Below are positions 1,306 to 41,434 of a stretch of 64,000 nt of DNA, piece by piece. Origin of the DNA: Akkermansia muciniphila (lineage in GTDB: Bacteria; Verrucomicrobiota; Verrucomicrobiia; Verrucomicrobiales; Akkermansiaceae); assembly GCA_945879075.1 (NCBI GenBank), contig CAMCUY010000002.1:1-64000 (forward strand), read 5' to 3'. Both the position numbers and the translations under genes were made by a program. Below the pieces are notes generated by a model. It was given only the letters and a program-made list of their open reading frames with translations, did no database searches and was not told where the DNA came from. Position 1 is the first letter of the stretch. Each line of letters opens with the position of its first letter.

Positions 1306-3921
1306 ATGAAACCAAAATCAAACACCGCCACCCTCCGCAACTCCAGCTTCGGAGCGCCACTCATCACCGCCATCGTCCTCTCCTTCAGCGCGTCGCTCAG
1401 CCATGCGGATGACAACAATTGGACCGGGACCACCAGTTCGGACTGGAATGACGCAACCAACTGGTCGGAAGCCGGCGTGCCGGATACATTATTCGGCGAC
1501 AACGCGGTTGTCTCAACGGTCGCACCCAACATCGCGACGATCACCGCTGACATCATAACCTCACCCAATGATATCAACGTGACCGGAGGCGGACGAATCG
1601 ACCATCAAGCGGGTATCGCCGGCACTGCTGGCGGTGCCTGGATGTCCGTCGGTCAGGACAGCACGCAAAGCTTCTACAACCTCGCCGACACTTCGACCGC
1701 AGGCACTGGAATCAGCGGATATGCACAAGGCTCGGGAACTCTGAATGTAACCGGAAACCTCAACTTGGCCGCATGGGGTGGCAACCGCAAAGGGACCATG
1801 AACATCAACACGACGGGTGCCTTGAATGTCACTGGGACACTTCGCATCGGCAATGACGGCGGTTCCGTCGGCGTGATGAATTTGGAGTCGGGTGCAGTGA
1901 TCCTTTCGCACACGGTTACTGTTTGGGGAGCAGACGAGACCCACATTGGCCATGGTGGAGGCACCGCAACATTGAATATTGCAGGCGGCTCTCTGAGTGC
2001 ATCGAGGAATTTTCGCCTCGGGAATGATCGTGGAAACGGAACGATCAATATCTCAGCTGGTTCGCTTACCATCACGGGAACCGATGATGTCTTCATCGGT
2101 CGCGACAAGGGCACTGCTGTAGTCAATCAATCCGGCGGCGTGGTTGAATTCAACCACAACACCTTTATCGCCAATGGAAACAACCAGAGCGACCCAACCA
2201 CTGGAACTTACAATCTCAGCGCCGGCGCGCTCAATGTGAAGCGTGAGTTCGTGATCGGTCGCGAGGGTGCCAATGGCACGCACACCGGCACCCTGAACAT
2301 GACGGGCGGCACGATCACCAAGACCGGAGATGAGAAGATGATCGTCGGTCACAACAATGCCAAAGGCTTCGTCGTGCACAGCGGTGGAACGATCAACGTA
2401 AATAACAACGAGTTGTTTATCGGTAACGAGAACGCTGGTGCCCAGGGAACCTATACCTTGAGTGGCACAGGGGCGCTCAATGTGGCGAACGAACTTGTTG
2501 TCGGTCGTGAGAGCGGCACAGGCACTCTGAATGTCAACGGCGGCACGCTCACCACCTCCGGCAACGGCAACATGTATATCGGACGCCGAAACGGCACAGG
2601 AACCCTGAACCAGACGGCTGGTGTGATCAGTGTGAACCGCGAGTTCGGTGTGGGAACGCGTGACGACAATAAGATCGGCACCGGTACCTACAACCTGAGC
2701 GACACAGGTGTTATCACCGTGGCGAACAATCTTTTCGTCGGGAAAGAACAGGGGTCTTCGGGGGATTTGAACATGACGGGCGGAACCATGAGCACGAGTG
2801 ACAAACTGATGATCGGACACAACCAGGCCACCGGTGTGGTGACACAGAGTGGTGGCACCGTGAATGTGCAAAACGAGGTCTTTGTAGGCAACGAGAACAA
2901 CGTCTCATCGGTCGCCCCATCGGTGGGCACCTACACGATCAGCGCCTCGGCCGCTCTGATTGTAGGCAACCAAATCATCGTGGGTCGTGACAATGGCACG
3001 GGCACCCTCAACCTCAATGGTGGCACTGTCACGACAAAGTGGATCGAGGGCGGCAGCGGCAGTGCGACGGTCAACTTCAACGGCGGCCTCATCAAGGCCA
3101 AGGAAAACCAGGGATCCATCATCAGGGATCTGGACGTGGCGAATGTGCAAAGCGGCGGACTCAAGATTGACAGCAACGGCTTCAATGTCAGCACGAGCCA
3201 GATTCTCACCGGAACCGGCGGTCTGGAGAAATCGGGGGCGGGTCAACTCACCTTGAGTGGCGCCAATACCTATGCAGGAACCACGACGGTTGCCGCAGGG
3301 GCATTGCGGATCGAGAAAACCGGGCTGAATGCCATTGTCAATGCCGCCGCTGACACCTTGGTTGCTGAGTTCACCGTGCAGCCTGCTGCTGGAGATTATC
3401 CAATCCTCCCTGGACCTCTTGCGGGTTCCCAGACTTTCAGCGCCAACGGTTTGGGGGCAAATCAGCAGGCCACATTCGATAATCAGACCAGCACCGTGAC
3501 GGTAACCAATACCGTAACAGACCCGTTCGTGACCTGGATCGATGGCTACACCCCGAATGCCCTGCTGCCGGATGAAGCGTCCAAACTTCCCGGTGCGGAT
3601 CCTGACGGCGATGGCATCACCAATCTAATGGAATTCGTACTCAGCGGCAGCCCAGTCGTTTCCTCGCAGTCCATCCTGCCGACGCAGGCGACTGTGGGCA
3701 CGGACCTAGTTCTCAGCTACACCCGCAGCGATGAGTCCGAAGCCGACACCACCCAGGTCGGCCAATGGAGCACCGACCTCTCGACTTGGACGAATGTTAC
3801 ACCCGTACTCGTCAATGAAAACGGTGCGTCTGCCGACGACATGACAATCTCCGTACCCAGGAGTAATGCGGTGAATGGCAAGATGTTCCTTCGCTTGAGC
3901 GTGGGAACGCCCACCCCCTGA
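1306..3921 (+). CDS. Secreted autotransporter-type beta-strand repeat protein
   Basis: The protein has 871 residues. Residues 1-35 form a signal peptide (basic start, hydrophobic stretch, SLSHADD cleavage region). Residues ~40-600 are Gly/Thr/Asn-rich repeats of about 40-50 residues of the kind GTGTLNVNGGTLTTSGNGN, alternating with NLFVGKEQG-like strands, as expected of a parallel beta-helix. Around residues 630-660, LTLSGANTYAGTTTVAAGAL matches the autotransporter-associated beta-strand repeat (TIGR02601 type). The C-terminal ~150 residues carry DPDGDGITNLMEFVLSG and a short beta domain ending FLRLSVGTPTP, common at the ends of verrucomicrobial exported proteins. No outer-membrane beta-barrel and no clear PEP-CTERM anchor is visible, so the export or anchoring route is unknown. 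Probable role is a surface adhesin or matrix protein; partner and ligand are unknown. Confidence 0.85.
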   Translation: MKPKSNTATLRNSSFGAPLITAIVLSFSASLSHADDNNWTGTTSSDWNDATNWSEAGVPDTLFGDNAVVSTVAPNIATITADIITSPNDINVTGGGRIDHQAGIAGTAGGAWMSVGQDSTQSFYNLADTSTAGTGISGYAQGSGTLNVTGNLNLAAWGGNRKGTMNINTTGALNVTGTLRIGNDGGSVGVMNLESGAVILSHTVTVWGADETHIGHGGGTATLNIAGGSLSASRNFRLGNDRGNGTINISAGSLTITGTDDVFIGRDKGTAVVNQSGGVVEFNHNTFIANGNNQSDPTTGTYNLSAGALNVKREFVIGREGANGTHTGTLNMTGGTITKTGDEKMIVGHNNAKGFVVHSGGTINVNNNELFIGNENAGAQGTYTLSGTGALNVANELVVGRESGTGTLNVNGGTLTTSGNGNMYIGRRNGTGTLNQTAGVISVNREFGVGTRDDNKIGTGTYNLSDTGVITVANNLFVGKEQGSSGDLNMTGGTMSTSDKLMIGHNQATGVVTQSGGTVNVQNEVFVGNENNVSSVAPSVGTYTISASAALIVGNQIIVGRDNGTGTLNLNGGTVTTKWIEGGSGSATVNFNGGLIKAKENQGSIIRDLDVANVQSGGLKIDSNGFNVSTSQILTGTGGLEKSGAGQLTLSGANTYAGTTTVAAGALRIEKTGLNAIVNAAADTLVAEFTVQPAAGDYPILPGPLAGSQTFSANGLGANQQATFDNQTSTVTVTNTVTDPFVTWIDGYTPNALLPDEASKLPGADPDGDGITNLMEFVLSGSPVVSSQSILPTQATVGTDLVLSYTRSDESEADTTQVGQWSTDLSTWTNVTPVLVNENGASADDMTISVPRSNAVNGKMFLRLSVGTPTP

Positions 3922-3946
3922 TCTCCCCGATCTGGGTTGCAATCAA

Positions 3947-4495
3947 CTAACATTCTAAAATCCTCAGGGGGCCGAAGGATTCCCGGAAGCCCCTAACCAT
4001 CCGCGCTTCCCGTCGGCCGTCTTTCGTCCCGGCGAGACCTACACCCACACGATGATCCATAAATTCTCGGCGGAGTAACTTCGTCGCCTGCTGTTCGAAT
4101 TGTAGAAACCTCACCAGCTTGGACACTCCGGACTCACCGCTCGCAACGCATTTCTTTTCCGCCAGGGGCAGACGGCCCGGCGCAATAATCGGACCTTGCA
4201 GATAATTCACAACGTAGATCTGCAGGCTCGACCGCCAATGATAGCGCCCGGTAAGCAACGTGTAGCGGGTGGGCGAGCAGACGCCGCTCGAGGTATGCGC
4301 GTCGGTGAAACGCATGCCCTGCGAGGCCAGCATGTCGATGTTCGGGGTGGGGATCTTTCCCCGCTCCGGATTGTAACATTTCACATCCCCATAGCCGAGG
4401 TCGTCGGCCAGGATGATGATGATGTTGGGCTTTGATCCGGCCAGGGCATGGCTGCACCACCCGGTGAGGAGCATCAAGCGGATGGCGGATTTCAT
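3947..4495 (-). pseudogene. Arylsulfatase, N-terminal remnant
   Basis: The better start is the internal Met at 4495, which gives a signal peptide ([20 protein letters not shown]) followed at once by [17 protein letters not shown], the metal-binding opening of family S1 sulfatases. The formylglycine motif [13 protein letters not shown] is intact. Similarity ends at about [15 protein letters not shown] (near base 4150), after roughly 115 residues of an expected ~450-500; the remaining codons run antisense through the galM scrap. All later metal and substrate residues are missing, so it cannot be active. A secreted formylglycine-generating enzyme is present at 53-54 kb. Calling it a pseudogene is secure; when it was lost is not known. 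Confidence 0.82.
3962..4078 (+). pseudogene. Aldose 1-epimerase C-terminal remnant
   Basis: Reading from about 3962 to the TAA at 4076-4078 gives a tail containing [19 protein letters not shown] and then [11 protein letters not shown], which closely resembles the last ~35 residues of aldose 1-epimerase (galactose mutarotase). There is no start codon and none of the upstream ~300 residues, including the catalytic His/Glu regions, so this is a 3' scrap of a lost galM. It lies directly after the repeat-protein gene on the same strand and is antisense to the read-through tail of the sulfatase remnant. Too short for the ORF track. Confidence 0.7.
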
Positions 4496-4695
4496 GGGCG
4501 GGATGCTTCGCAGGGCCAGGCGGTATTTCATAGAAGATTCATCTGACGGGGTTACTTGGATTCTGGATTCTGGATTCGGAGCGGGGTGCGGGCTTTTACG
4601 GACAAATCTTTACACTACCTTTCTCCGGATTTGCAAGGTCACGGGCTGCTGTCAGCGGCCCTGTTTTTTTGCGCTGCTAAGCTTAGGGAATGAAT

Positions 4696-4738
4696 CCGAC
4701 TGTCTCAGCCGGATTCCTCTTCCAACTGGAACAGTCGG
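4696..4738. repeat. Intergenic palindrome of the CCGACTGTCTCAG family
   Basis: CCGACTGTCTCAGCCGG folds as a 7-bp arm (one mismatch) around a TCT loop, and the outer CCGACTGT also pairs with ACAGTCGG 27 bases downstream. Related copies lie at 11050, 14135 and 42908. It sits just beyond the terminator of the SNF2 gene. Confidence 0.55.
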
Positions 4739-4752
4739 GACAGCATCCACAA

Positions 4753-4784
4753 AAAAAGCCCGGCCGTGTCTGGCCGGGCTTTCT
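4753..4784 (-). terminator. Rho-independent terminator of the SNF2 gene
   Basis: AAAGCCCGGCC pairs with GGCCGGGCTTT around a 6-base loop; on the minus strand the stem is followed by a run of seven T. It begins about 20 bases after the stop of the SNF2 helicase gene. Confidence 0.85.
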
Positions 4785-4802
4785 TGTGGCGGGAAGCCGG
4801 GA

Positions 4803-7800
4803 TTATTTGATCTCGTCTTCCTCGTCGATGGTGTGCGTGAGGATGAACTGCAGGTCGTCGAGACCGAGGTTCGAGGCGAAGCCTTCGTCGCCGAGCACGT
4901 TGGTGACGAGCTGGGTTTTCTGGTGCTGAAGGATGCGGATCTTCTCCTCGACGGTGTCGCGGGTGAGCAGACGATAGGCGATGACCTTGTTCTTCTGGCC
5001 GATCCGGTGGGTTCGGTCGATGGCTTGGTTTTCGACGGCCGGGTTCCACCATGGATCGTAAAGAATGACATACGACGCCGAGGTGAGGTTAAGGCCGGCG
5101 CCACCCGCCTTGAGCGAGAGCATGAAGACGGAGGGATCCTTGGTGGTCTGGAATTTCTCGATCTCGCCCTTCCGGTCCTTGGTCTGACCGGTGAGGTAGT
5201 TGTAGGGGCGGTTGTTGAGTTCGAGGCGCGCCTTGATGAGGTCGAGCATGGAAACGAACTGGGAGAAAACGAGGACCTTGTGGCCTTCCTCGTGGAGCTG
5301 GTCCAACAGATAGAACAGCGATTCCATTTTCGCGGATTCCTCCTTGAGATACTTGGGATCGATGAGGCCGGGGTGGCAGCAGATTTGCCGCAGGCGCATG
5401 AGACCTTGGAGGATGGCGAAGGAGTTTTTCTTGACCGCCTCGTCGGAATCAAGTCCGAGCAGTGCCTTCTGGATGCGCTTGAGTTCGTTTTTATAGAGCT
5501 CGATCTGGATGCCTTCCATTTTCGAGTAAACCTCTTCTTCGGTCCGCGGCGGAAGGTCCTGGGCGACCTGCAGCTTGGTGCGGCGGAGGAGGAACGGACG
5601 CAGGCGGGAGGCGAGGCGGCTCTGGCTGAGCGGGTCCTTGCGCTTGTCGAAGCGTTTCTTGAAATAGGCGCGGCTGCCGAGCACGCCGGGCATGGCGAAG
5701 GCCATGAGCGACCACATGTCGAGCAGGCGGTTTTCGATCGGCGTCCCGGTGAGGACCAGGCGGTTTTGGGAGTCCAGCTCGCGGGCGCACTTGGCGGCCT
5801 TGGAGTCCGGATTCTTGATCTGCTGGCCTTCGTCAAGGATGGTGGTGAGCCACTTGATGCCGTTGAGTTCCTCGCCGCAGACGCGGAGCTGGGCGTAGTT
5901 GAGGACGAGGATGTCGATGTTGTTCTGGATGTGCGGAACATCGATGTCGTCGCGGTTCTTGAGAATCTTGACCTTGAGCTGCGGGGTGAATTTGCCGGCC
6001 TCGCTGTACCAGACGTCCAAGACGGACTTGGGACAGACGACGAGTGCCGGTTTTTTCATGCCGCCGGTCTTGCGGTGTTCCTCGAACAACCAGAGCAGAT
6101 AGGTGAGCGACTGGATGGTTTTTCCGAGTCCCATGTCGTCGGCGAGGATGCCGCCGAAATTGTTGACGCAGAGGTAGGCGAGGAACTTGAAGCCATCCAC
6201 CTGATAGGGGCGGAGGGTGGCGTTGAGGCCGTCAGGGAGGTCCGGGTTGACCTCGAGCTGGATGTCGTTGGCGCGGTTCTTGATGCGCTCCCAGGCTTTC
6301 GGATCGAAGACCTCGGCGGCCTTGGGATCGGATAGCTGCAGGGCGTGCATGCGGTGGGTCTCGCCGGAGAGGTCGAAGGGATCGAGTCCGAGGCGGGTGA
6401 CGGCTTCGCGCTGATCGGCGTCGAGTTTGATTTCCAAACGCATCCACGTGCCGTCGTCCATCCGGACGTAGCCACCGCGGGCGGCGACGAGTTGGCGGAT
6501 CTGGACTTTGGAAAGATTGGCGCCCTGCACGTCGATGACGATGCGGAGGTCGAACCAGTCGATGTCCTGGCCGACGACCTCGAAGCGCACGGCGGCGGTG
6601 ACGGGATCGGCGAGGATGGACTTGAGGCGGAGGTCGATGTCGAGCTCGATGTTCTCGGGCATCGCCTTGATCCATTCCGCGAATTTCTCGGGGAACTGCT
6701 TGGTGATGCGGGATTTGAAGGAGAGCAGCTTTTCGTCGTAGCTGAGGCCCATTTCGTCGAGGATGGAGGGGACCGGATAGAGGTCCTCGCGGGCGAAACG
6801 CAGGAGTTGTTTGCCTTTGACCGGTTGTTGTTCGGCGAGTTCCCAGCCTTCCTTGACGAGGCGCTCGGTGCGGCGGCCCTTGGTCTCGATGGCGGTGACG
6901 TCGATGACGAGGTGCTCGGTCTCGGCGGCGGTGAGGCCGGCGATGAGCTTCATTTCGAACTTCGGCTTGAGCTCGAGATCGATGACGCGCTTCTTGAGCG
7001 ACTCGGGCAGGGCGGCACCGATTTTACGGAGGAACTCGACCCCTTCGAGCGAGTCGATGACGCGGACCGGAATCAGATAGCGCGGCATGACGTCGGTTTC
7101 TTCGAGCCAGCGTGGCGGGCCGGGGAAGACGGTTTCGTCGGATTGATAGAGTTCCTTGCGGCCGGGCAGGAGGCGGACCGAGTGGGAGACGTTCTCGCCG
7201 GAGGCGGTGACGAGCTGGAGGGCGAAGCTTTTCGGATCGAAAGGCTCGTCCTCACAAACCCAGGAGAGTGGGTCTTCGGAGACTTTGAATTCCCGTTCGT
7301 CGAGGTTGACGATGTAGCCGCTGAGGGCGGGCTGGCGGAAAACGCGGTTCATGAACCGGCAGGATTCCTCCTGGTCGAAGTCGAGGGTGGTGTCGCCGTA
7401 TTTGCGGAAGAAGGCGAGGTAGTGCTCCCACAGTGTCTGGCTGGAAGCGTCCATCAGCAGCGCGGCTTCATGGTGGAGATTGACGTAATTCTCGATGTCG
7501 TTCTTTTCGCGAAGCTGGATCCAGACGCCGGCTTTCGCTTCTTTCACTTCGAGGCGGGCCTCGTTGATGGTGGCGACCAAGCGGAAACCAACAGTGAGCG
7601 GCGCCTCCTGTGGCGGGCGTTCGTTGACTTGCTCGATGCGCTCATACCAGGATGCGACTTCGCGCTCTTGCTCCCAGTCCGCCATTTTTTTCTGCACGTG
7701 ACCGAGATCGGTGATCACGCTCATGAACTCGGGGTAGGGGAGTTTCTTTTTGTAGAAGGCGTAGGCGATGTAGTTCCAGAACTCGAGGATGTCGCCCGGC

Positions 7801-8300
7801 GGGATGGGCCAGAGTTCGAGCGGCTCGTAAGTGGTGATTTCCCAACGCGGGGTGATCCGCACCATGTCGTGGTCGTGGAGTTCGCCCTCGATCACGTAGC
7901 GACGGTAGCGTTTTTCGATCTTGGTGACGAAATCCGCCTCCTTGTCGTCGAGCTCGCGGCCGAGTTTTTCCTCGATGATGTCGAGCACCGGCGTGTCGTC
8001 GAACTCGTTCGGCGATTCCGGGAGGTCCTCGCCGCGGTGCATGCGCTCCATCATGGTGGCATACTGGCAGGCCCCGGCGATCAGCTCGTTTTCGGCGGTG
8101 CAGGAGCCGAACCAGCGGTTGCCTTGGAGGCGGAGGCTGGTGCGGAAAGTGCCGGTTTCGTCCTCGACGCGACCTTGGATGAAGAGGTGGTTTCCGAAAA
8201 TCTGGGTGACGGCACCGTCCTTTTGCAGCATTTCCCCGCGCTTTCGGGCATCCTCTGGAAAACTGTTGAGGAAATTAAGGGTCGCTCTGTCTGGATTCAT
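4803..8300 (-). CDS. SNF2-family DEAD/DEAH-box helicase (1165 aa)
   Basis: An ATP-dependent DNA translocase of the bacterial SNF2/RapA-like group. Residues ~1-130 include a degenerate SWIM-like zinc motif (WFGSCTAENELIAGACQYA). Residues ~130-690 are a long region without a recognised domain. The SNF2 ATPase core starts at YQVDGFKFLAYL, with Walker A in LADDMGLGKT (about residue 722) and motif II as DEGQQIKNP (about 823). The second RecA lobe holds GHKVLVFSQF (~1010) and ends with DRTHRIGQKNKVIAYRLL. All helicase motifs are present, so it should be active. The exact role (repair, transcription recycling, stress) is not inferable. It appears monocistronic with its own terminator. Two ~650-codon plus-strand ORFs over it are antisense shadows. 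Confidence 0.93.
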   Translation of the reverse strand: MNPDRATLNFLNSFPEDARKRGEMLQKDGAVTQIFGNHLFIQGRVEDETGTFRTSLRLQGNRWFGSCTAENELIAGACQYATMMERMHRGEDLPESPNEFDDTPVLDIIEEKLGRELDDKEADFVTKIEKRYRRYVIEGELHDHDMVRITPRWEITTYEPLELWPIPPGDILEFWNYIAYAFYKKKLPYPEFMSVITDLGHVQKKMADWEQEREVASWYERIEQVNERPPQEAPLTVGFRLVATINEARLEVKEAKAGVWIQLREKNDIENYVNLHHEAALLMDASSQTLWEHYLAFFRKYGDTTLDFDQEESCRFMNRVFRQPALSGYIVNLDEREFKVSEDPLSWVCEDEPFDPKSFALQLVTASGENVSHSVRLLPGRKELYQSDETVFPGPPRWLEETDVMPRYLIPVRVIDSLEGVEFLRKIGAALPESLKKRVIDLELKPKFEMKLIAGLTAAETEHLVIDVTAIETKGRRTERLVKEGWELAEQQPVKGKQLLRFAREDLYPVPSILDEMGLSYDEKLLSFKSRITKQFPEKFAEWIKAMPENIELDIDLRLKSILADPVTAAVRFEVVGQDIDWFDLRIVIDVQGANLSKVQIRQLVAARGGYVRMDDGTWMRLEIKLDADQREAVTRLGLDPFDLSGETHRMHALQLSDPKAAEVFDPKAWERIKNRANDIQLEVNPDLPDGLNATLRPYQVDGFKFLAYLCVNNFGGILADDMGLGKTIQSLTYLLWLFEEHRKTGGMKKPALVVCPKSVLDVWYSEAGKFTPQLKVKILKNRDDIDVPHIQNNIDILVLNYAQLRVCGEELNGIKWLTTILDEGQQIKNPDSKAAKCARELDSQNRLVLTGTPIENRLLDMWSLMAFAMPGVLGSRAYFKKRFDKRKDPLSQSRLASRLRPFLLRRTKLQVAQDLPPRTEEEVYSKMEGIQIELYKNELKRIQKALLGLDSDEAVKKNSFAILQGLMRLRQICCHPGLIDPKYLKEESAKMESLFYLLDQLHEEGHKVLVFSQFVSMLDLIKARLELNNRPYNYLTGQTKDRKGEIEKFQTTKDPSVFMLSLKAGGAGLNLTSASYVILYDPWWNPAVENQAIDRTHRIGQKNKVIAYRLLTRDTVEEKIRILQHQKTQLVTNVLGDEGFASNLGLDDLQFILTHTIDEEDEIK

Positions 8301-8503
8301 CTCGTGTGAAGTTGGAAAATGGCCCGGAACTCACCGCGCAAAGCAACTTGCCACGCCACGCAACGCCGGGCTGCGAGGGTAATCCATAAAAACGGGGGGA
8401 CGCAATAAAAACCTTATAACCGCAATTTCTTTGCCTCATAAGCGATTGAAATAGCCGCTCAGGGAGAATTCTGCGGATAGAAGCTGCGGAATTGCCGCGG
8501 CGG

Positions 8504-9025
8504 TCATGGCCTCCTGAAGACCGCCCGGAAGCTGATGCCGAGCCCGCCCAATACGAACAGCGCAGGGAACCAGATCGAATAGCCCGGCGCGAGCGAATCC
8601 GGTTTCAAGACCGCGAAATCAGAGTTCGCCGGATCGACCCGGCAAGTCGTCATTTTCCCTACCGGGTATTGCGAGACCCGCTGGTCCGCCAGCTCGCGCT
8701 TCGAGGACCAAGGGCTGCCGCGCAGGGTCAAATGGTCGCCGGTGCGGGCCACGCCCTGCCATTCATAGCCGAAACTCAGATCCTGACGGAATTCCGCGGG
8801 CGAGTTTTCATCATGCCGCCTTTCCTCCACTTCCGAGGTGATGATCACGCAAGCGACTTCCGGCCAGCTCCGCATTTCACGCGCTCGGAGGAAACTCCGC
8901 GCCATCAGCCAGATGAACAGCCCGCCGAGCAGGGCGATCACCAAGCCGAGGCACCCCAAATACCAACGTCCCGCGCGGCTGTTTGGGGCGGGGGGCTTGG
9001 TGGATCGAGAGGAATCGTGTGTCAC
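8504..9025 (-). CDS. DUF3592-type membrane protein
   Basis: The protein has 173 residues and two membrane segments, roughly 22-45 (YLGCLGLVIALLGGLFIW) and 150-167 (IWFPALFVLGGLGISF). They bracket an extracytoplasmic domain that starts with RSWPEVACVIITSEVEE and includes FGYEWQGVARTGDHL and VGKMTTCRVDPANS. This layout and the wording W-P-x-V-x-G/C-x-I plus V-x-Y-x-P/D-P are those of DUF3592. Function is unknown for the family. It stands alone, divergent from the subtilase downstream, with about 110 bp between the two starts that would contain both promoters. Confidence 0.75.
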   Translation of the reverse strand: MTHDSSRSTKPPAPNSRAGRWYLGCLGLVIALLGGLFIWLMARSFLRAREMRSWPEVACVIITSEVEERRHDENSPAEFRQDLSFGYEWQGVARTGDHLTLRGSPWSSKRELADQRVSQYPVGKMTTCRVDPANSDFAVLKPDSLAPGYSIWFPALFVLGGLGISFRAVFRRP

Positions 9026-9138
9026 GCCCGAAGCTATGCGGCAGATGCCGCCGGGATGCCACCCGAAATCTTTCGCAGCCGCGTTCGTCGTGGGAAATTT
9101 TTCCTGCCGTTTTGCGCATTTTCGGGTTTATGTAGGCC

Positions 9139-10755
9139 ATGCGTCGCGGCCACTTGATTTTGATCCTCGGCTTCGTGGTCACCGCGATGCTGGGATATTG
9201 GTTGGCGGGCACCGCGGTTCCTGTGCAAACCGCGCGGAAGGCGGTTCCGGAAGCGCAGGCCGGACCGAGGCGGACAATGATCACCGACGAGTCGACTCCT
9301 AAATTCCGCCGGGGCGAGCGGCTTCCGGCATCCCGCCGCGATGACGCGGCTGCGGAAGTCGGCGCGCTGCAGGGGCAGCGAATTGTGGTTTTCAAGAACC
9401 AGGCCGCGCTCGAAAATTTCCTCAAGCGCGCCGGGGACAATATCCGGCTGATGGGCCGCCTCGACGCGCTCAATACGCTGCGCATCGGTTTCTCCGATCC
9501 CGACGACCTGGCGTGGCTGCTCGATGGCGAGAGCGAGGCTTCGTTGGTATTTCCCGTGGATATTCCCAACCCCGGCGAAGGAACCGCACAAGCGGGAGCC
9601 GTGGCTTTGGGCGACGGCTTGCTCGACTGGCTCGGCATCACGGGGGACAATTCCACCTGGGGCAGTGGCGTCCGGATCGCGGTTTTGGATACTGGCGTAG
9701 TTTCCAGTTCCGCCTTCGGAAGCAAGATTTCCTGGATCAATCTGGTTGTGCTCCCGGCCGATCTCTCCAAACAGAACGGCCACGGGACCGCCGTCGCTTC
9801 CATGATCATCGGGCAAAATTCGCTGGCTCCCGGCGTCGCGCCCGGCGCGGAAATCATTTCGATCCGCATCGCCGACGACTTCGGCCAGTCTGATAGTTTC
9901 CTGCTCGCAAAGGGCATCGTCGCTGCGGTCGATGCGGGCGCGCGGCTGATCAATATTTCGATGGGCAGCTTGGGCGACAGCGCGTTGGTGCGGAATGCCA
10001 TCGAGTATGCGCGGGCGGCCGGCTCGTTGATCGTGGCTGCTGCGGGAAACAACGGGATCGACCGGGTGTCCTATCCGGCCGCGAACGACGGCGTGATCGC
10101 GGTGGGCGCGGTGGATGCTTTGGGAAATCATCTGGATTTCTCCAACACCGGCAGCGAGATCGTGGTCTCGGCGCCGGGCTACGGCGTGAATGCCGCGTGG
10201 ACCGGCGACCAGGCGGCACGAGTGAGCGGGACATCGTTTAGCGCCCCGATCGTGCTGGGCGTGATCGCCGCGGTGAAGAGCTGGCCGGGCAACGAGAAGC
10301 TGTCGATGCAGCAAGCGGCGGACGTGGCTTTTTCCTATCTGAATGACGGCGGCGAAGCCGGGGTGGACGCCGCGTTGGGTGCGGGCATGGTTGACTTGGG
10401 GCGTGTTTTAAACGGGAAAACTCCCGGCATTTACGACGCGGCCCTGGCCTCGCAGCGAATCCTCGCGCCAAGTGCCGGTTATCCGTACGGCCACGTCGAG
10501 GTGCTGGTGCAAAACCGGGGCACCGAAACCCTGATCAACACCGCGGTCCGGATTTCCACGCCGGGCGGTGTGGTGGATTCCAACATCACCGCGCTCGCCG
10601 TCGGCGCGGTCCAAGTCGTCCGCGTTCCGGTCTCGCAACAGGCGGCCGCGAGCATCCGCTTCGAATCCAAGGTCAGTCTATCCGGCGGCCGCACGGACGC
10701 GAAGCCTTCCAACGACTGGCGTGTTGAAACTTATGTTCCGGCTGGCAGCAAGTAG
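9139..10755 (+). CDS. Membrane-anchored or secreted subtilisin-like serine protease (S8)
   Basis: The protein has 538 residues. Residues 5-25 are a signal peptide or signal anchor. The S8 catalytic triad is intact: Asp184 in IAVLDTGV, His215 in NGHGTAVASMI and Ser366 in VSGTSFSAPI; the oxyanion Asn lies in AAAGNNG. The stretch before Asp184 (~80-150, RIVVFKNQAALENFL...) resembles an I9-like propeptide fold. After the protease domain, residues ~430-530 (YGHVEVLVQNRGTETLINTAV) look like a CARDB/Ig-type beta domain. It should work outside the cytoplasmic membrane in protein turnover or processing; the substrate is unknown. It has no operon partner and ends into a convergent decayed gene. Confidence 0.9.
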   Translation: MRRGHLILILGFVVTAMLGYWLAGTAVPVQTARKAVPEAQAGPRRTMITDESTPKFRRGERLPASRRDDAAAEVGALQGQRIVVFKNQAALENFLKRAGDNIRLMGRLDALNTLRIGFSDPDDLAWLLDGESEASLVFPVDIPNPGEGTAQAGAVALGDGLLDWLGITGDNSTWGSGVRIAVLDTGVVSSSAFGSKISWINLVVLPADLSKQNGHGTAVASMIIGQNSLAPGVAPGAEIISIRIADDFGQSDSFLLAKGIVAAVDAGARLINISMGSLGDSALVRNAIEYARAAGSLIVAAAGNNGIDRVSYPAANDGVIAVGAVDALGNHLDFSNTGSEIVVSAPGYGVNAAWTGDQAARVSGTSFSAPIVLGVIAAVKSWPGNEKLSMQQAADVAFSYLNDGGEAGVDAALGAGMVDLGRVLNGKTPGIYDAALASQRILAPSAGYPYGHVEVLVQNRGTETLINTAVRISTPGGVVDSNITALAVGAVQVVRVPVSQQAAASIRFESKVSLSGGRTDAKPSNDWRVETYVPAGSK

Positions 10756-35072: not shown

Positions 35073-36035
35073 TCAAGTCGCCGGCGCGAGTCGCTGGAGC
35101 AGCAGCGCGGAAACGAAGGCGAGGGGAGGGACGAACAGGCAGGCCGCCGTGAAAGGTGACGTCCCCGCAAGGTTCGTCATGGCCAGAGAGGAAAGACTGA
35201 GAGGCAAAAGCACCATCCAGTCGATGAGCGGGATGCCAGCAAGCAGTCTGGAGACGTGCCGGGACACCGGCTTTCTCCAGACGCTCAGGCTGAGGATCGT
35301 CCATAGGCAGTAGGGTAGAAGTCCAGCAACCACGAACAACACGGAATCGACGCGCCACTGATAGATCGCGTAAGAAACGGCAGCGGCCGCTGTGATAAAA
35401 AGGATTCGCGCAAGATTGGAAATCCGGGCAGGTGGGTTTGGCATCGCCTCGTATCTGGCGCTCAAGGAAAGGCCCGCGATGTGGCAAAACAGGCCGAGCG
35501 CGCAGGCACCGATCATTCCCGAATGGGGCGGAATGGTCTGCACTAGGAAGACCCCGGAAAATCCCACCGCGCCCATCACCGGCAACAGCGCGCGGCACAA
35601 GCCCATCGCGACGACCGCCCAAGGGCTGCGTTTATGCCAGCAGGTGTAGATGGCGACCATACAGAGGATCGCCACCGCCACGGCCGCGCTCGCCGGACTC
35701 GTCACGGCGCTGAGAAAGATCCCGCCCGCGGCGCAAACCGCGGCCACTCTCAGATAGAATCCTGGCGGAAACAAGCCGCGCGGCAGCGCCCGCTCCGGCC
35801 GGTTTTTCAAGTCCCATGCCCGGTCCGCCCAGTCGTTGAGGAAATTTCCTGAAACGTAGAGCAGCACGCCCGCCAGCGCCAGACGGGCGGCGGCGGACCA
35901 CGGATGTGAAAACGAACACCAGCCTCCCAGATAGCCGGCAATCGACACGCCCAGCCAGACGTTGCTCACCACGCTCGGGATGTTCGCCACCCGGGCGGTG
36001 GACAGAAGGGCGTGAATCTTTCCGGAGCGGTTCAT
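35073..36035 (-). CDS. UbiA family prenyltransferase
   Basis: The start at 36035 (MNRSGKIHALLSTARVANIP) gives 320 residues with about eight membrane helices. The first Asp-rich motif is YVSGNFLNDWADRAWDLKNR (NDxxD-like), followed by PERALPRGLFPPG, a basic stretch typical of UbiA proteins with EboC/SCO3242-like wording. The second Asp motif is weak (ARYEAMPN region), as in this subgroup. It transfers a prenyl group to an aromatic or sugar acceptor in the membrane; the true substrate is uncertain. It lies upstream of sufE and downstream of the NOS gene on the same strand (200-bp gap). Confidence 0.85.
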   Translation of the reverse strand: MNRSGKIHALLSTARVANIPSVVSNVWLGVSIAGYLGGWCSFSHPWSAAARLALAGVLLYVSGNFLNDWADRAWDLKNRPERALPRGLFPPGFYLRVAAVCAAGGIFLSAVTSPASAAVAVAILCMVAIYTCWHKRSPWAVVAMGLCRALLPVMGAVGFSGVFLVQTIPPHSGMIGACALGLFCHIAGLSLSARYEAMPNPPARISNLARILFITAAAAVSYAIYQWRVDSVLFVVAGLLPYCLWTILSLSVWRKPVSRHVSRLLAGIPLIDWMVLLPLSLSSLAMTNLAGTSPFTAACLFVPPLAFVSALLLQRLAPAT

Positions 36036-36235
36036 CGGCCCGCAGCATGCGGCAAACCGCAGGATCCGCCAAAAGGAAATCTCGCGATATTTTGCCTCAT
36101 CCGGCAGGGCAGGGCGCCACCTGCTTGCGGAAAATGATCTCGGCCAATCCATGCAGGCCGGAATGGTCATTAGGAAGACGTGAAATCTGGTTCAAAGACG
36201 AGCGTGCCGAACTTCATGTTTTCAGAGAGACTCAT
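36036..36235 (-). other. 200-bp gap with possible coding scraps
   Basis: On the minus strand the gap after the NOS stop contains an ATG opening MKFGTLVFEPDFTSS and, one frame over, HSGLHGLAEIIFRKQVAPC and a stop. Neither is recognised; together they may be remains of a small gene. No terminator hairpin was seen. Confidence 0.25.
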
Positions 36236-37243
36236 TCACCAGGGCAGTTGGTTGACGAAGCTTGGTTCCGGGGCGACTTCATCGTAATAGCGGTGAAATA
36301 CCGGACACGCCGAAGCGGACATCGGAGGCACCAACCAAGACCAGTCGCCGGGTACGGTCCGTCCGCATTTTTCTTCGATCTCGATGTGTCGCATGAATTG
36401 AGAGGACGCTGTGTGGTGGTCGATGATGGTAACGCCTGCTTCATGGAAGGAGTGCAGCACGGCGGTGTTGAGTTCCACGAGTGCTCTGTCTTTCCACAAG
36501 CTCCGGGGTGAGCGCAGGTCGAGTCCCATGCCTTTGGCGATGCCTGGCAGTTGGTTGTAGCGGTTCTCATCCCCTAAGTTCCTTGAGGCGATCTCGGTAG
36601 CCATGTAGTGGCCGCTGAAAGGAGCTGCGGTGAAGTTCCACCCACCTCCGACGAGCGCCATGTCGGAAATGACCGGCACGGCATGCCACTTGAGTCCCAA
36701 TGCCGCGAACCATGAGAAGTCGGGGTGGAAGATCGGCACTTCCATTACGGAGTCCCGGGGAAGTGGGTAAAACCGGGGGGTGTCACCGGGGACGTCGATC
36801 ACCAGAGGTAGTAGGTCAAAATGGCTGCGCTCCCGGGGCGGGCGCCAACCCATCGCAATCACTTTGAGGGTGAATTCCAACTGTTCGGGATCACCCGTGA
36901 TCGTGCCGTTGCTTTCGCGGTAGCCCGCGTATCTGACGAGTTGCCGGTTCCTAATCCGGATGCCCGGCTTTCCATTCAGGGCAGGGGGGAATATGGTGAT
37001 TGCGGAACGGACTTTTCCGCCATTAGTTGCAAGGCGAAGGTGTGTGACGCAGGCGTCGAAGACATCATCCGGCTTTGCGGTCGTCCTCGCGTCTATGACC
37101 TCAAGTTTCTTCCAGAATAAACGGCCGATGCAGCGCGCGCTATTCCTCCATGCGGTTCTTGCCATCATGGCAAGCTCATGGTCGGGCATGGGTCCAGTTA
37201 GGTCATGAATGCGTGAAGAGTTCGACATGGAGCGATGGTGCAT
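36236..37243 (-). CDS. nos: Bacterial nitric oxide synthase oxygenase
   Basis: The protein has 335 residues, matching the NOS oxygenase domain almost throughout. TAWRNSARCIGRLFW carries the heme-thiolate Cys38. HLRLATNGGKVRSAITIFPP and VRYAGYRE follow. The substrate Glu217 lies in GHYMATEIASRNLGDENRYN, then KDRALVELNTAVLHSF and VTIIDHHTASSQFMRH. The pterin side is GDWSWLVPPMSASACPVFHR (Trp301). VPVISDM keeps an Ile at the site that is Val in mammals, as in slow NO-releasing bacterial enzymes. Against Bacillus NOS (~363 residues) about 25 N-terminal residues are missing, and the usual GWYM is GHYM here. No reductase domain is fused, as expected for bacteria. It makes NO and citrulline from arginine. 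Between ndh and ubiA, in a patch with IS remnants. Confidence 0.93.
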   Translation of the reverse strand: MHHRSMSNSSRIHDLTGPMPDHELAMMARTAWRNSARCIGRLFWKKLEVIDARTTAKPDDVFDACVTHLRLATNGGKVRSAITIFPPALNGKPGIRIRNRQLVRYAGYRESNGTITGDPEQLEFTLKVIAMGWRPPRERSHFDLLPLVIDVPGDTPRFYPLPRDSVMEVPIFHPDFSWFAALGLKWHAVPVISDMALVGGGWNFTAAPFSGHYMATEIASRNLGDENRYNQLPGIAKGMGLDLRSPRSLWKDRALVELNTAVLHSFHEAGVTIIDHHTASSQFMRHIEIEEKCGRTVPGDWSWLVPPMSASACPVFHRYYDEVAPEPSFVNQLPW

Positions 37244-37259
37244 GATTCCGATTTCGAAT

Positions 37260-37929
37260 CTAGCTGTAAAATCCGCGAACTCTATTGGAATGGGCGGGGC
37301 CCTCCTTGCCGAAGGTGGCGGTGGTCTGGCGTTTGAGGGCGGGCATTGCGTGTTCCTTCTTGGGCTCGATTTGATCCGCGACGGTGAGGTGGTTCATGCC
37401 ATGGCTGCGCAGGTCGAGCGTGTAAAGGTGACGGGTGGCGTATTTGATGGTGGCAACCCGGGTGGTGGTGGATGGATCGGGCGTGCCGGGTTGGTCGGAT
37501 TTTGTGGATTTGCTGGTGCGCGGCTTGGCTTTGTCATGGGTGGCGGCGGCGATGAAGTGGCCATCACCCGCATCAATGTCGAAGTCATAAGTCAACAAGG
37601 CATTGGTGACCGGCGAAAGGGTCGGGCAGTTCATGGCGCAAGCGGTTGCGGACCTGGCCGAGGATTTCATCGACTAGCAGGAGGCGACGCTTGCTCTTGA
37701 GGCTCTCGAAAAAGCTGGAGATGAGGTCTCGCGTGTCGTGTGGGTCGGCGAGTTGTTGAAGGAAATCGCGTCCCTTTTTTGAAAAATACCCAGACAGCGG
37801 CGGACGCCAGTTAGGAGCCAGAAGGAATTTTCGAGGGCAGGGCGGTTCCGGCGGCGTTTCGCGGTGTTTGGCGGTGTCGGAAAAACAAAAAGTGGCTTGA
37901 AGCATTCCATTCGATTCATTGGTTTGCAT
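37260..37929 (-). pseudogene. Unrecognised gene, possibly frameshifted, upstream of nos
   Basis: Two overlapping minus-strand frames look coding-like one after the other. From 37929 (MQTNESNGMLQATFCFSD) the first runs to 37585 through SGYFSKKGRDFLQQL and FFESLKSKRRLLLVDEILGQ. The second, to 37260, carries NALLTYDFDIDAGDGHFIAA, ATRHLYTLDLRSHGMNHLTV and KKEHAMPALKRQ. They overlap around 37600-37670, where a single-base slip would join them into ~220 residues. I do not recognise either part. The upstream region is more AT-rich than average. It may be one broken gene, two small genes or chance. Confidence 0.3.
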
Positions 37930-38230
37930 TGAGTTGCGTAGGTATAAAAATTTCAGACCTGGCCAGTAGGCAGCAATCAGAAATGCGTGGAAAGGGTGGA
38001 AATTCGGAAGATTCGCGCACGAGAGGGTGATTTCGATCGAGGGAGAATGAGGCCGACAGCCTCGCTGCAATGGCCCCGCGTGTCATTCACAGCGGCAAGT
38101 TCTTGCTCAATGTTGGACATCGTTGCATGTGGCGGGATTCCAGAACGGCTTCAGGCTCGATAAGCCACTGGTCAGGAAACCGCTGGGCGCTGGGCCCATG
38201 TGAGACCGATGAAGTTCGCAGCTACTCTTT

Positions 38231-39517
38231 TTAGATGCTATCAGACTGACTCGGCTTGATGCCCGTGACAATCCGCGCGCCGCGTCGATACGTGCAGTAT
38301 GAGTAAAACCACTGGAGCAGCACGGCCATTTTGTTGCGAAATCCGACGAGGAAGATGAGGTGGACAAACAACCACGCCAGCCACGCCATGAACCCGCTGA
38401 AACGAATGCTGCCAATCTCTGCCACGGCTGCCGAACGGCCGATCGTGGCCATCGTGCCCTTGTCGCGATACTTGAACTCCGGACGCGGCGCGTTCCCGGG
38501 CACCGATGCTGATAGTTCGTGATCGATGATCCTGGCGACGTGCTGTGCTTGCTGAATCGCCGCCGGTGAGACTCCCGGCACAGGTTTTCCATTCGCCTGC
38601 ATGACCAGCGCAAGATCGCCGATCGCAAACACCTCGGGATGCCCGGGCAGGCTAAGATCTGGCATGACTTTCAGGCGTCCCGCACGATCTGTCTCGACGC
38701 CGAGCGAGCGCGTGAGCGGGCTTGCGGAGACCCCTGCCGCCCAGATGATGTTGGCAGCTTCGATGCGTGTCCCATCGGCGAGTTCTACGAGTCCTTCGGA
38801 AATGTTGCTGACCTTCGCTTGCATGCGTACCTCGACCCCCATGTCTTCCAACTGCCGCTTGGCGCTCTCCGACATTTCAGGAGCCATGTGTGCAAGCAGG
38901 CGGTCACCGCCTTCCAGCAGTATGACACGCGCCTCGCCAGGATCGATGTGGCGAAAGTCGCGGCGCAACACATGTCGTGTGAGTTCGGCAAAAGCACCTG
39001 CAAGTTCCAAGCCGGTCGCGCCTCCGCCCACGACCACGACGGTCAGCAAGCGGTCGTGCCCGGCGCGGTCCGGTTCGTTCTCTGCACGCTCGAAGGCAAG
39101 CAGCACTTCACGGCGAATGCGCAGGGCGTCGTCGAGCGATTTCAAGCCCGGTGCGAATTGCTCCCACTCGGGATGCCCGAAGTAGCTCGTAACGCCGCCG
39201 AGAGCGATCACGAGGTGGTCGTATTCAAGCGGACCACTGGCAAGTTCAACTCGTCGCGTCGCGAGTTCGATACCGCTCACCTCGTCGAGACGCACACTGA
39301 CGTTTGGTAGATCGCGAAGAATCGAGCGGGCTGGCTGCGCGATTTCAGGCGCGGACAAGCCCGCCGTGGCGACTTGATACAACAACGGCTGAAAAAGATG
39401 ATGATTCTGCCGGTCCACGAGCGTGACTCGCGCCTGCGAGTTGCGGAAAACCTGACAGAATGTCAGTCCCCCGAATCCAGCGCCAAGCACCACGATATGA
39501 GGGGATTTATGAGACAC
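38231..39517 (-). CDS. ndh: Type II NADH:quinone oxidoreductase
   Basis: A single-subunit, non-proton-pumping NADH dehydrogenase. The GTG at 39517 (SHKSPHIVVLGAGFGGL) fits the family start; the 12 extra tracked codons overlap the upstream gene. The FAD-binding GxGxxG is VVLGAGFGGL, with HHLFQPLLYQVATAGLS after it. The NADH site is LLTVVVVGGGATGLELAGA, and the second FAD motif is HPEVFAIGDLALVM. The C-terminus has the membrane-associated YRDKGTMATIGRSAAVAEI and a hydrophobic stretch FMAWLAWLFVHLIFLVGF with a basic tail. At 428 residues it has normal length. It lies between the DUF6788-like gene and the unknown gene upstream of nos. Confidence 0.93.
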   Translation of the reverse strand: MSHKSPHIVVLGAGFGGLTFCQVFRNSQARVTLVDRQNHHLFQPLLYQVATAGLSAPEIAQPARSILRDLPNVSVRLDEVSGIELATRRVELASGPLEYDHLVIALGGVTSYFGHPEWEQFAPGLKSLDDALRIRREVLLAFERAENEPDRAGHDRLLTVVVVGGGATGLELAGAFAELTRHVLRRDFRHIDPGEARVILLEGGDRLLAHMAPEMSESAKRQLEDMGVEVRMQAKVSNISEGLVELADGTRIEAANIIWAAGVSASPLTRSLGVETDRAGRLKVMPDLSLPGHPEVFAIGDLALVMQANGKPVPGVSPAAIQQAQHVARIIDHELSASVPGNAPRPEFKYRDKGTMATIGRSAAVAEIGSIRFSGFMAWLAWLFVHLIFLVGFRNKMAVLLQWFYSYCTYRRGARIVTGIKPSQSDSI

Positions 39518-39854
39518 GATGTTCGAATATGTGGCGGGACCGGGCGAGCGCAAGCAGTAAGGTGACGGGAGAATGCGTTGTTCGAAAATCTCGAGCCATG
39601 GGCAGGTTTTTCCGCTGATTCCCAGGAACCGTTTTAAGGATTGAAGTCTGGGTGATTTCCCTCATTTCCCTGACAATTTCCTCAAGCTGCTTGTGGTTCT
39701 CGACGGCTTGAAGCATTTGTGCCGCCTGCTCTTTGGACAGGGCGACACAGGCGGTTTTGCCTTCCACCTTGAACGTCCAGCACCAGGATCCCGGCGCTTG
39801 GAAAGCGACGCTGCCGTGGCTCACGGGGCCGATCGCGGCGAGCTGATTATCCAA
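39507..39854 (-). CDS. Small DUF6788-like protein
   Basis: 115 residues; the first ~75 are coherent: GPVSHGSVAFQAPGSWCWTF, EGKTACVALSKEQAAQML and an amphipathic helix QAVENHKQLEEIVREMREIT. That order (short strand pair, K-T-x-x-x-x-L-S-x-E-Q, then E-N-x-x-x-L-E helix) recalls DUF6788-type proteins that often travel with transposases. The last ~30 residues overlap the ndh start by 11 bp and may be read-through. It lies about 120 bp from the broken IS4 transposase. Low to moderate confidence that it is expressed. Confidence 0.45.
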   Translation of the reverse strand: MDNQLAAIGPVSHGSVAFQAPGSWCWTFKVEGKTACVALSKEQAAQMLQAVENHKQLEEIVREMREITQTSILKTVPGNQRKNLPMARDFRTTHSPVTLLLALARSRHIFEHRVS

Positions 39855-39974: not shown

Positions 39975-41434
39975 AAGCATCCTGTTTTTTCAAGGATTCT
40001 CCTCGATTCTTTTCGGCCGCCCGGCACTCTCAGGACTCTAGGAAAAGCTCCGGAAGGTCGCCGCCCTCAACACCCTTTCGGATTTCTTCGAGACGTTCGG
40101 ATTCCTCATCACCGACGCGCTCCTTCACCGTCGTTCCTCCGGAGCCAACAGCTGTCAGCGACGCTTCACCCCGCATATGACCTCCTAGGCCTTTCTCGCC
40201 CAAACCCTCGCCCCGGAAACACCCTGCCGCGACATCGTGCGCAAGGTGCAGGCTTGGTGGCTGCTGCGCGCACCGAAATCCAACGCCGGCTCCTCATCCA
40301 CTGCCGCCTACACGAAGGCCCGCCAACGCCTCGCCCGCGAAACCATCCGCGGCATTGGAGAACACCTCATCGAGCATCTTGAAAGACGCGTGCCATCCTC
40401 GCAGCTATGGCTCGCGCGGCGCGTCAGGGTGGTCGATGGAACCACCGTCTCCATGCCCGACACGCCCGCAAACCAGAAGAAATACCCGCAACCCTCGTCT
40501 CAAAAAGCCGGTTGTGGATTCCCCCAGATGTGTGGCGTCGGTCACTTCTCACTGGCAAGCGGAGCCCTGTTGGATTTCGCGAAAAGCAGCATCAACGTCC
40601 ACGAAAGCATCCTCTTCGTGCAACTCATGGGCCATCTTGAAAAAAAGGCGACATCGTCCTGGCAGACCGCGGATTCGGTTCGTTCCACGCCTTCTGGAAG
40701 ATGTCGCAAGCCGACATTGATACCCTCATGCGTCTCAACGGCGGTCCAAAGGTGGACTTCCGCAAAGGCAGGAAGCTCGGCCCTAACGACCGATTGATCG
40801 CTTGGAAGAAGCCCGCCCAACGCCCCAAGGGCTGCACCGAGGAAGAATTCGACGCGCTACCCGCAAGCATGACCCTGCGCCATGTCGGGCTCACCGCATC
40901 GGCGAGCGGGCACCGCACCCAGACCATCACTCTGGTGATCACTCTGCTGGATGCCGTCGCCTATCCATTGCAGCAACTCGGCGAGCTCTATCTTCAGCGC
41001 TGGAGCGTCGAACCCCACTTCCGTGAAATCCAAATCAACCTCGGCAGGACGTGCTGCGCTGCAAGACACCCGTCATGGTGGAAAAGGAAGTGATGATGCA
41101 CGCCGTTTCGTATAACCTGGTTCGTTCACTGATGCAGCTGGCCGCCGTCAGGCATCAAGTCGATCTCACCCGGATCAGCTTCAAAGGCACCGACGATACC
41201 CTGCGGCACTGGAGCGCGAGCCTCGAAGCCATGCGAGGCATGCCACGCAAACAGAAATCCCTGCTAGACACGATGTTCGAAATCATCGCCAGCGATCTCG
41301 TTCCGCATCGCCCGGAACGAGAGGAACCGCGAGCGAAAAAACGCAGGCTCAAGAACTATCAACTCCTCACAAAACCCCGCCACGAGATGCAAATTTCAGG
41401 CCACAGAAACCGTGCCAAATCCTCGTTAAGTTAG
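39975..41434 (+). mobile_element. IS4-family insertion sequence with broken transposase
   Basis: Four pieces in different frames make an IS4 transposase. The N-terminal part (~40040-40200) reads TLSDFFETFGFLITDALLHR and then a TAG inside an MTS-stop-AFLAQTLAPET stretch. The next piece contains VRKVQAWWLLRAP, RVRVVDGTTVSMPDTPANQK (first DDE Asp) and FSLASGALLDFA. The third, from ~40700, has the second Asp near DxGF (lost at the shift), then GELYLQRWSVEPHFREIQIN, the YREK-like region with the Glu. The last has LRCKTPVMVEKEVMMHAVSY and HHDxL-like tail residues. One nonsense codon and at least two frameshifts make it inactive. Outer limits are estimated; no perfect terminal inverted repeats were found by eye. 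Confidence 0.85.

Follow-up and report, generated by a model that had tools for sequence, protein, structure and literature searches.

The 64,000-nucleotide stretch of DNA analyzed here (the window) carries on its minus strand an open reading frame of 335 codons with an ATG start (36236–37243), which encodes a nitric oxide synthase (NOS) oxygenase. The gene, its key codons, and its surroundings are, in order of position:

35073–36170, minus strand: UbiA-family prenyltransferase gene (PF01040), the downstream neighbor that is kept in the nearest relative (synteny with L111)
36236–37243, minus strand: NOS oxygenase gene, 335 amino acids with a short N-terminus (PF02898, E = 4.4e-136; dN/dS 0.24–0.26; AlphaFold2 pLDDT 89.4)
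36341–36343, minus strand: codon of Trp301, the pterin-stacking tryptophan (invariant column; role according to PMC9500659)
36593–36595, minus strand: codon of Glu217, the substrate-binding glutamate (invariant column)
36608–36610, minus strand: codon of His212, the residue that stands where the usual GWYM motif has Trp (aligned with Geobacillus NOS and nNOS; His, Tyr, or Phe in 39/39 clade members)
37130–37132, minus strand: codon of Cys38, the heme thiolate ligand (column invariant in the alignments)
37244–37299, minus strand: conserved leader and upstream DNA, at whose far end the homology to the promoter side of the orthologues stops (blastn)
37300–38070, minus strand: DNA that replaces the divergent marR gene and the palindrome of the orthologues (no homology to the orthologue loci)
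38231–39553, minus strand: gene for an NDH-2-like FAD/NAD(P) oxidoreductase, the upstream neighbor (PF07992 and NDH2_C)
40237–41093, plus strand: decayed IS4-family transposase in two frame-broken pieces (matches to NF033592 with E = 2.7e-18 and 7.7e-9, neither of which reaches the family cut-off)

The sequence-only reading had proposed a NOS oxygenase with Cys38, Glu217, and Trp301 as functional residues, and the data agree with this. The NO synthase profile PF02898 matched the window protein at 454 bits (cut-off 22.7; E = 4.4e-136) over profile positions 48–357 of 362, and Cys38, Trp32, Glu217, and Trp301 did not vary in two NOS alignments, one of 20 and one of 67 sequences. The heme ligand Cys38 lies in the motif WRNxxRCIGR, and the proximal Trp32 is present as well. 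An NCBIfam search with the same protein gave no match. When the PDB was searched by sequence, Geobacillus NOS came first (4.9e-103) and mammalian NOSs next. An AlphaFold2 model built from an alignment of 67 homologues had a pLDDT of 89.4 and a pTM of 0.87, with pLDDT values below 50 only at residues 1–14, and its best match in the PDB was B. subtilis NOS (TM 0.90, RMSD 1.5 over 317 columns).

The window NOS resembles the NOSs of Bacillus subtilis and Geobacillus stearothermophilus in its domain, fold (TM 0.90), and catalytic residues and in having no fused reductase; it differs from them (approximately 50% identity) by the loss of about 47 N-terminal profile positions and by His in place of the GWYM Trp. 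The oxygenase domains of mammalian NOSs (nNOS, eNOS) are 48% identical to the window NOS (TM 0.90–0.91), which, unlike these, has no zinc/hook region, N-terminal helices, reductase, or calmodulin site. Among the matches listed, the closest named records are two MAGs labelled Akkermansia muciniphila in NCBI, with 92% and 88% protein identity. Compared with the two closest orthologues (88–92% identical), dN/dS amounts to 0.24 and 0.26, which indicates purifying selection. Taken together, the profile match, the invariant residues, the predicted fold, and the dN/dS values show an intact gene that selection maintains. It is the sole NOS gene of its genome (2.39 Mb in 135 contigs, 90% completeness). 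Judged by its sequence, it is a genuine stand-alone NOS oxygenase in a verrucomicrobial background, as had been claimed. The emphasis placed on Ile192 as a bacterial-type residue was justified only in part: the residue is present and, through a constant offset of 26, equals I218 of B. subtilis NOS (compare the PDB title “4d3v I218V”), but it marks nothing, since close relatives carry either Ile or Val at this position.

Two oddities of the protein needed attention. The first, GHYM for GWYM, is real, as Geobacillus NOS and rat nNOS both have Trp at the aligned column. The second, the shortened N-terminus, is also real but larger than the approximately 25 residues originally estimated, with about 47 profile positions (1–47) missing. 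The reading frame stays open for 50 codons upstream of the start, to position 37390. A hidden upstream start that would restore the N-terminus was considered and rejected: the open stretch beyond 37243 contains neither a start codon nor a match to a NOS N-terminus. Several relatives have merely 18 to 20 open codons ahead of the heme motif, which, together with the missing upstream start codon, confirms the truncation.

The phylogeny that had been suggested was run on 73 NOS sequences (318 columns) and placed the window NOS inside a verrucomicrobial clade of 39 members (support 100/96) in which the site of the GWYM Trp is occupied by His, Tyr, or Phe in all 39 members. This site switches often within the clade; across the whole tree, there are 15 letter changes, four of them between Trp and another residue. 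Trp was also lost elsewhere in the tree, in the group of L012, L017, L131, and L134, and it is replaced by His in the plasmid-borne NOSs of Novosphingobium and Jannaschia and by Ile in that of Rhizobium. Nearly all members of the Trp-less clade begin just ahead of the heme motif; the basal members L065, L048, and L056 retain the full N-terminus. Hence, the loss of the GWYM Trp preceded that of the bulk of the N-terminal region. GHYM and the short N-terminus are inherited characters of this clade, shared by dozens of species, and not errors. The oddities of the window NOS define a new variant clade of NOS.

In established NOS structures, the GWYM Trp holds the substrate guanidinium via its main-chain carbonyl, so that a change of the side chain may well be tolerable. 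From a change of the His212 type, we expect altered kinetics or an altered pocket shape and not a loss of function. Two parts that other NOSs keep, the GWYM Trp and the helices at the N-terminus, are missing, which could affect activity or dimer formation. Tyr, Trp, and Glu have been named as the residues that fix arginine in NOS (PMC9500659). All members of the clade lack a residue that is kept in other NOSs, and the site next to the substrate Glu toggles between His, Tyr, and Phe, which could be read as a sign of altered chemistry, the heme protein oxidizing another guanidine or amine or yielding nitrite, nitroxyl, or superoxide in place of NO. We regard such a change as very improbable in view of the invariance of Cys38, Trp32, Glu217, and Trp301 and of the linkage to NO sensors described below, which argues for NO as the product. 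As the clade shows, a NOS can lose both the GWYM Trp and its N-terminal region with the remainder of the protein still under selection, and the clade offers a set of natural variants for structure–function work on NOS.

The downstream side of the locus (UbiA, SufE, and TerC) is syntenic with that of the nearest relative (genome G566, locus L111) at approximately 90% identity; a stretch of about 4 kb on this side of L111 has no counterpart in the window. Recent gene transfer into the site is ruled out by this synteny: the gene occupies the same position as its orthologue in the nearest relative and is thus not a recent arrival. The locus had previously been described as an accessory patch with IS remnants; the IS remnant is real, namely the IS4-family transposase fragments at 40237–41093.

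The rearranged part of the locus is the DNA upstream of NOS. Homology to both orthologues (L185 and L186) stops at 37299, that is, 56 bp upstream of the ATG, and identity over 37241–37299 is 96.6% to L185 and 88% to L186 (blastn). In both orthologues, a divergent MarR-family gene (PF01047) lies upstream of NOS, and the intergenic region between the two genes contains a 29-bp palindrome, which reads CCTTAAAATGCAAA-A-TTTGCATTTTAAGG in L186 and differs in L185 by one compensated change and one mismatch. This palindrome is likely an operator. Beside the window NOS, both the marR gene and the palindrome are missing. Directly upstream of the gene, 37300–38070 contains two overlapping ORF fragments; this stretch looked transposase-like by eye and gave no match in searches of Pfam, NCBIfam, and plasmids. 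No consistent site for a sigma-54 promoter was seen upstream of NOS. The break at 37300 may be a true rearrangement or an assembly join in this metagenome-derived genome.

One reading of this break is that the window NOS is on its way out, an orphan that lost its promoter side in the rearrangement and is perhaps unexpressed. The end of homology, the loss of marR and palindrome, and the transposase debris some 3 kb away would fit such decay, which we nevertheless consider improbable: the frame and the catalytic residues are intact, dN/dS is 0.24–0.26, and an assembly join could also account for the break.

The genomic context of NOS in relatives was assessed at 91 NOS loci, which add up to 1.33 Mb with flanks of up to about 10 kb on either side; 40 stretches taken from the same contigs served as controls. 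A receiver (REC) domain was found at 20 of 58 loci with an H/Y/F-type NOS, compared with 2 of 31 Trp-type loci (P = 0.004) and 3 of 40 controls (P = 0.002); 38 of the 58 H/Y/F-type loci have no receiver domain nearby. FIST/NosP and H-NOX are NO sensors that work with kinases (PMC12570481, PMC9500659). Four loci have H-NOX beside NOS, against 0.08 expected (P = 1.4e-6), and three have FIST (0.11 expected, P = 2e-4); the expectations come from genome-wide counts in 59 relatives with a summed size of approximately 260 Mb, and the P values assume independent loci, with L209 and L211, which share the same arrangement, counting as one event.

In total, NO sensors adjoin H/Y/F-type NOS genes at six loci in two families and Trp-type (GWYM) genes at 0 of 31. 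Locus L104, from another genus of the same family, combines both sensor classes in a single-strand run (nosP–kinase–regulator–NOS–hnoX–kinase) that consists of a FIST gene (3820–5133), a hybrid kinase (5145–7319), an NtrC-type regulator (7398–8744), NOS (8932–10071), H-NOX (from about 10072), and then a kinase with an HNOBA domain. Locus L207, from another family, carries H-NOX, an HNOBA-kinase, a LuxR-type regulator, and NOS. In L209 and L211, NOS is followed on the same strand by H-NOX at a distance of 639 bp, and in L039 and L044, FIST with a kinase and an NtrC-type regulator is found beside NOS. As in the known NosP (FIST)–kinase and H-NOX–kinase systems (PMC12570481, PMC9500659), the sensor adjoins a histidine kinase and a regulator in L104, L207, L044, and L039; unlike in those systems, an NO synthase is part of the cluster, and the regulators are of the NtrC or LuxR type and not c-di-GMP enzymes. 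A full-text literature search, covering mainly papers outside subscription, returned no paper on NOS clustered with FIST/NosP or H-NOX. A profile search of the window genome (90% complete) gave no FIST or H-NOX (HNOB) match.

Other bacterial NOSs without a reductase rely on a borrowed reductase and a reduced pterin. The window NOS would likewise convert L-arginine and O2 to citrulline and NO with electrons from a borrowed cellular reductase and would use a reduced pterin. The window genome has a PTPS-family gene; no GTP cyclohydrolase I (PF01227) turned up in its 90%-complete assembly. In relatives, NOS of this clade is linked to two-component systems and NO sensors (FIST/NosP and H-NOX), and because of this linkage, we infer that its NO most likely acts as a signal within the cell that produces it. 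With the sensors and the marR-type upstream region missing, the enzyme of the window genome is an orphan. Overall, the gene probably encodes a working short NOS of the Trp-less clade, an orphan copy of an enzyme that would serve NO signaling in relatives, with catalysis, reductase, and signaling being the parts that we infer. More specifically, NO made by the cell's own NOS may be read by NosP and/or H-NOX kinases of the same cluster, the window copy having lost the sensor part; this we propose tentatively, at slightly less than an even chance. The context suggests signaling by self-made NO in relatives only; such a context is absent from the window genome.

Alternatively, NO could serve cytoprotection or respiration, as proposed for Bacillus and Staphylococcus, with the kinases merely controlling expression and NO being no signal. 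Such roles have been described for other bacterial NOSs (PMC6195638, PMC5539425), NO sensors are missing at most loci of the clade, and at eight loci, NOS is flanked by a PAS/GAF kinase and a LuxR-type regulator without a known NO-sensor domain. We consider this alternative unlikely, given that NO-sensor genes lie by NOS at six loci in two families, far above chance, and by none of the Trp-type genes. Whether bacteria use self-made, NOS-derived NO as a signal is openly disputed: one paper asks “why do bacteria make NO?” (PMC6195638), and accounts in which NO itself acts as a signal in bacteria have been called scarce (PMC5539425). Clusters such as that of L104, in which NOS lies together with the two known classes of NO sensor in bacteria, make this question directly testable.

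NOS had been thought unusual for this lineage, which did not hold up. The gene was found in 18 of 390 genomes in a sample of the phylum, 17 of the 59 nearest relatives, 63/194 genomes of the family, and 105/386 genomes of the order, and NOS in verrucomicrobial MAGs was reported as early as 2017 (PMC5673642). The MAG in question, Opitutae-Tous-C4FEB, likewise carries NOS, with toxin genes absent nearby; that report gave the presence of NOS only and nothing on clade, residues, or sensor context.

Other NOS genes encountered in the survey differ in architecture or setting. In L014 (genome G360), the NOS frame contains one in-frame TAG and is possibly a pseudogene. L205 (9466–12672, minus strand) and L214 (7305–10505, plus strand), from another family of the order, encode Trp-type proteins of approximately 1067 residues in which NOS follows two cyclic-nucleotide-binding domains and a BFD-like [2Fe-2S] domain, and which are possibly regulated by cyclic nucleotides. 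L018 (3–2003, minus strand), from another verrucomicrobial family, encodes a NOS that is cut by the contig end and also follows a BFD-like [2Fe-2S] domain. On a plasmid of Nostoc sp. C052 (L137), NOS (3818–4987) shares a gene run with two SDR oxidoreductases, a fatty-acid desaturase, an aminotransferase, and an SRPBCC protein, which resembles a biosynthetic cluster that uses NO. On the Novosphingobium and Jannaschia plasmids (L143 and L144), NOS has GHY replacing GWY; in both, the gene immediately follows a radical SAM gene and has a glycosyltransferase gene nearby. NOS also occurs on haloarchaeal plasmids, namely the Natribaculum megaplasmids (L138 and L223).
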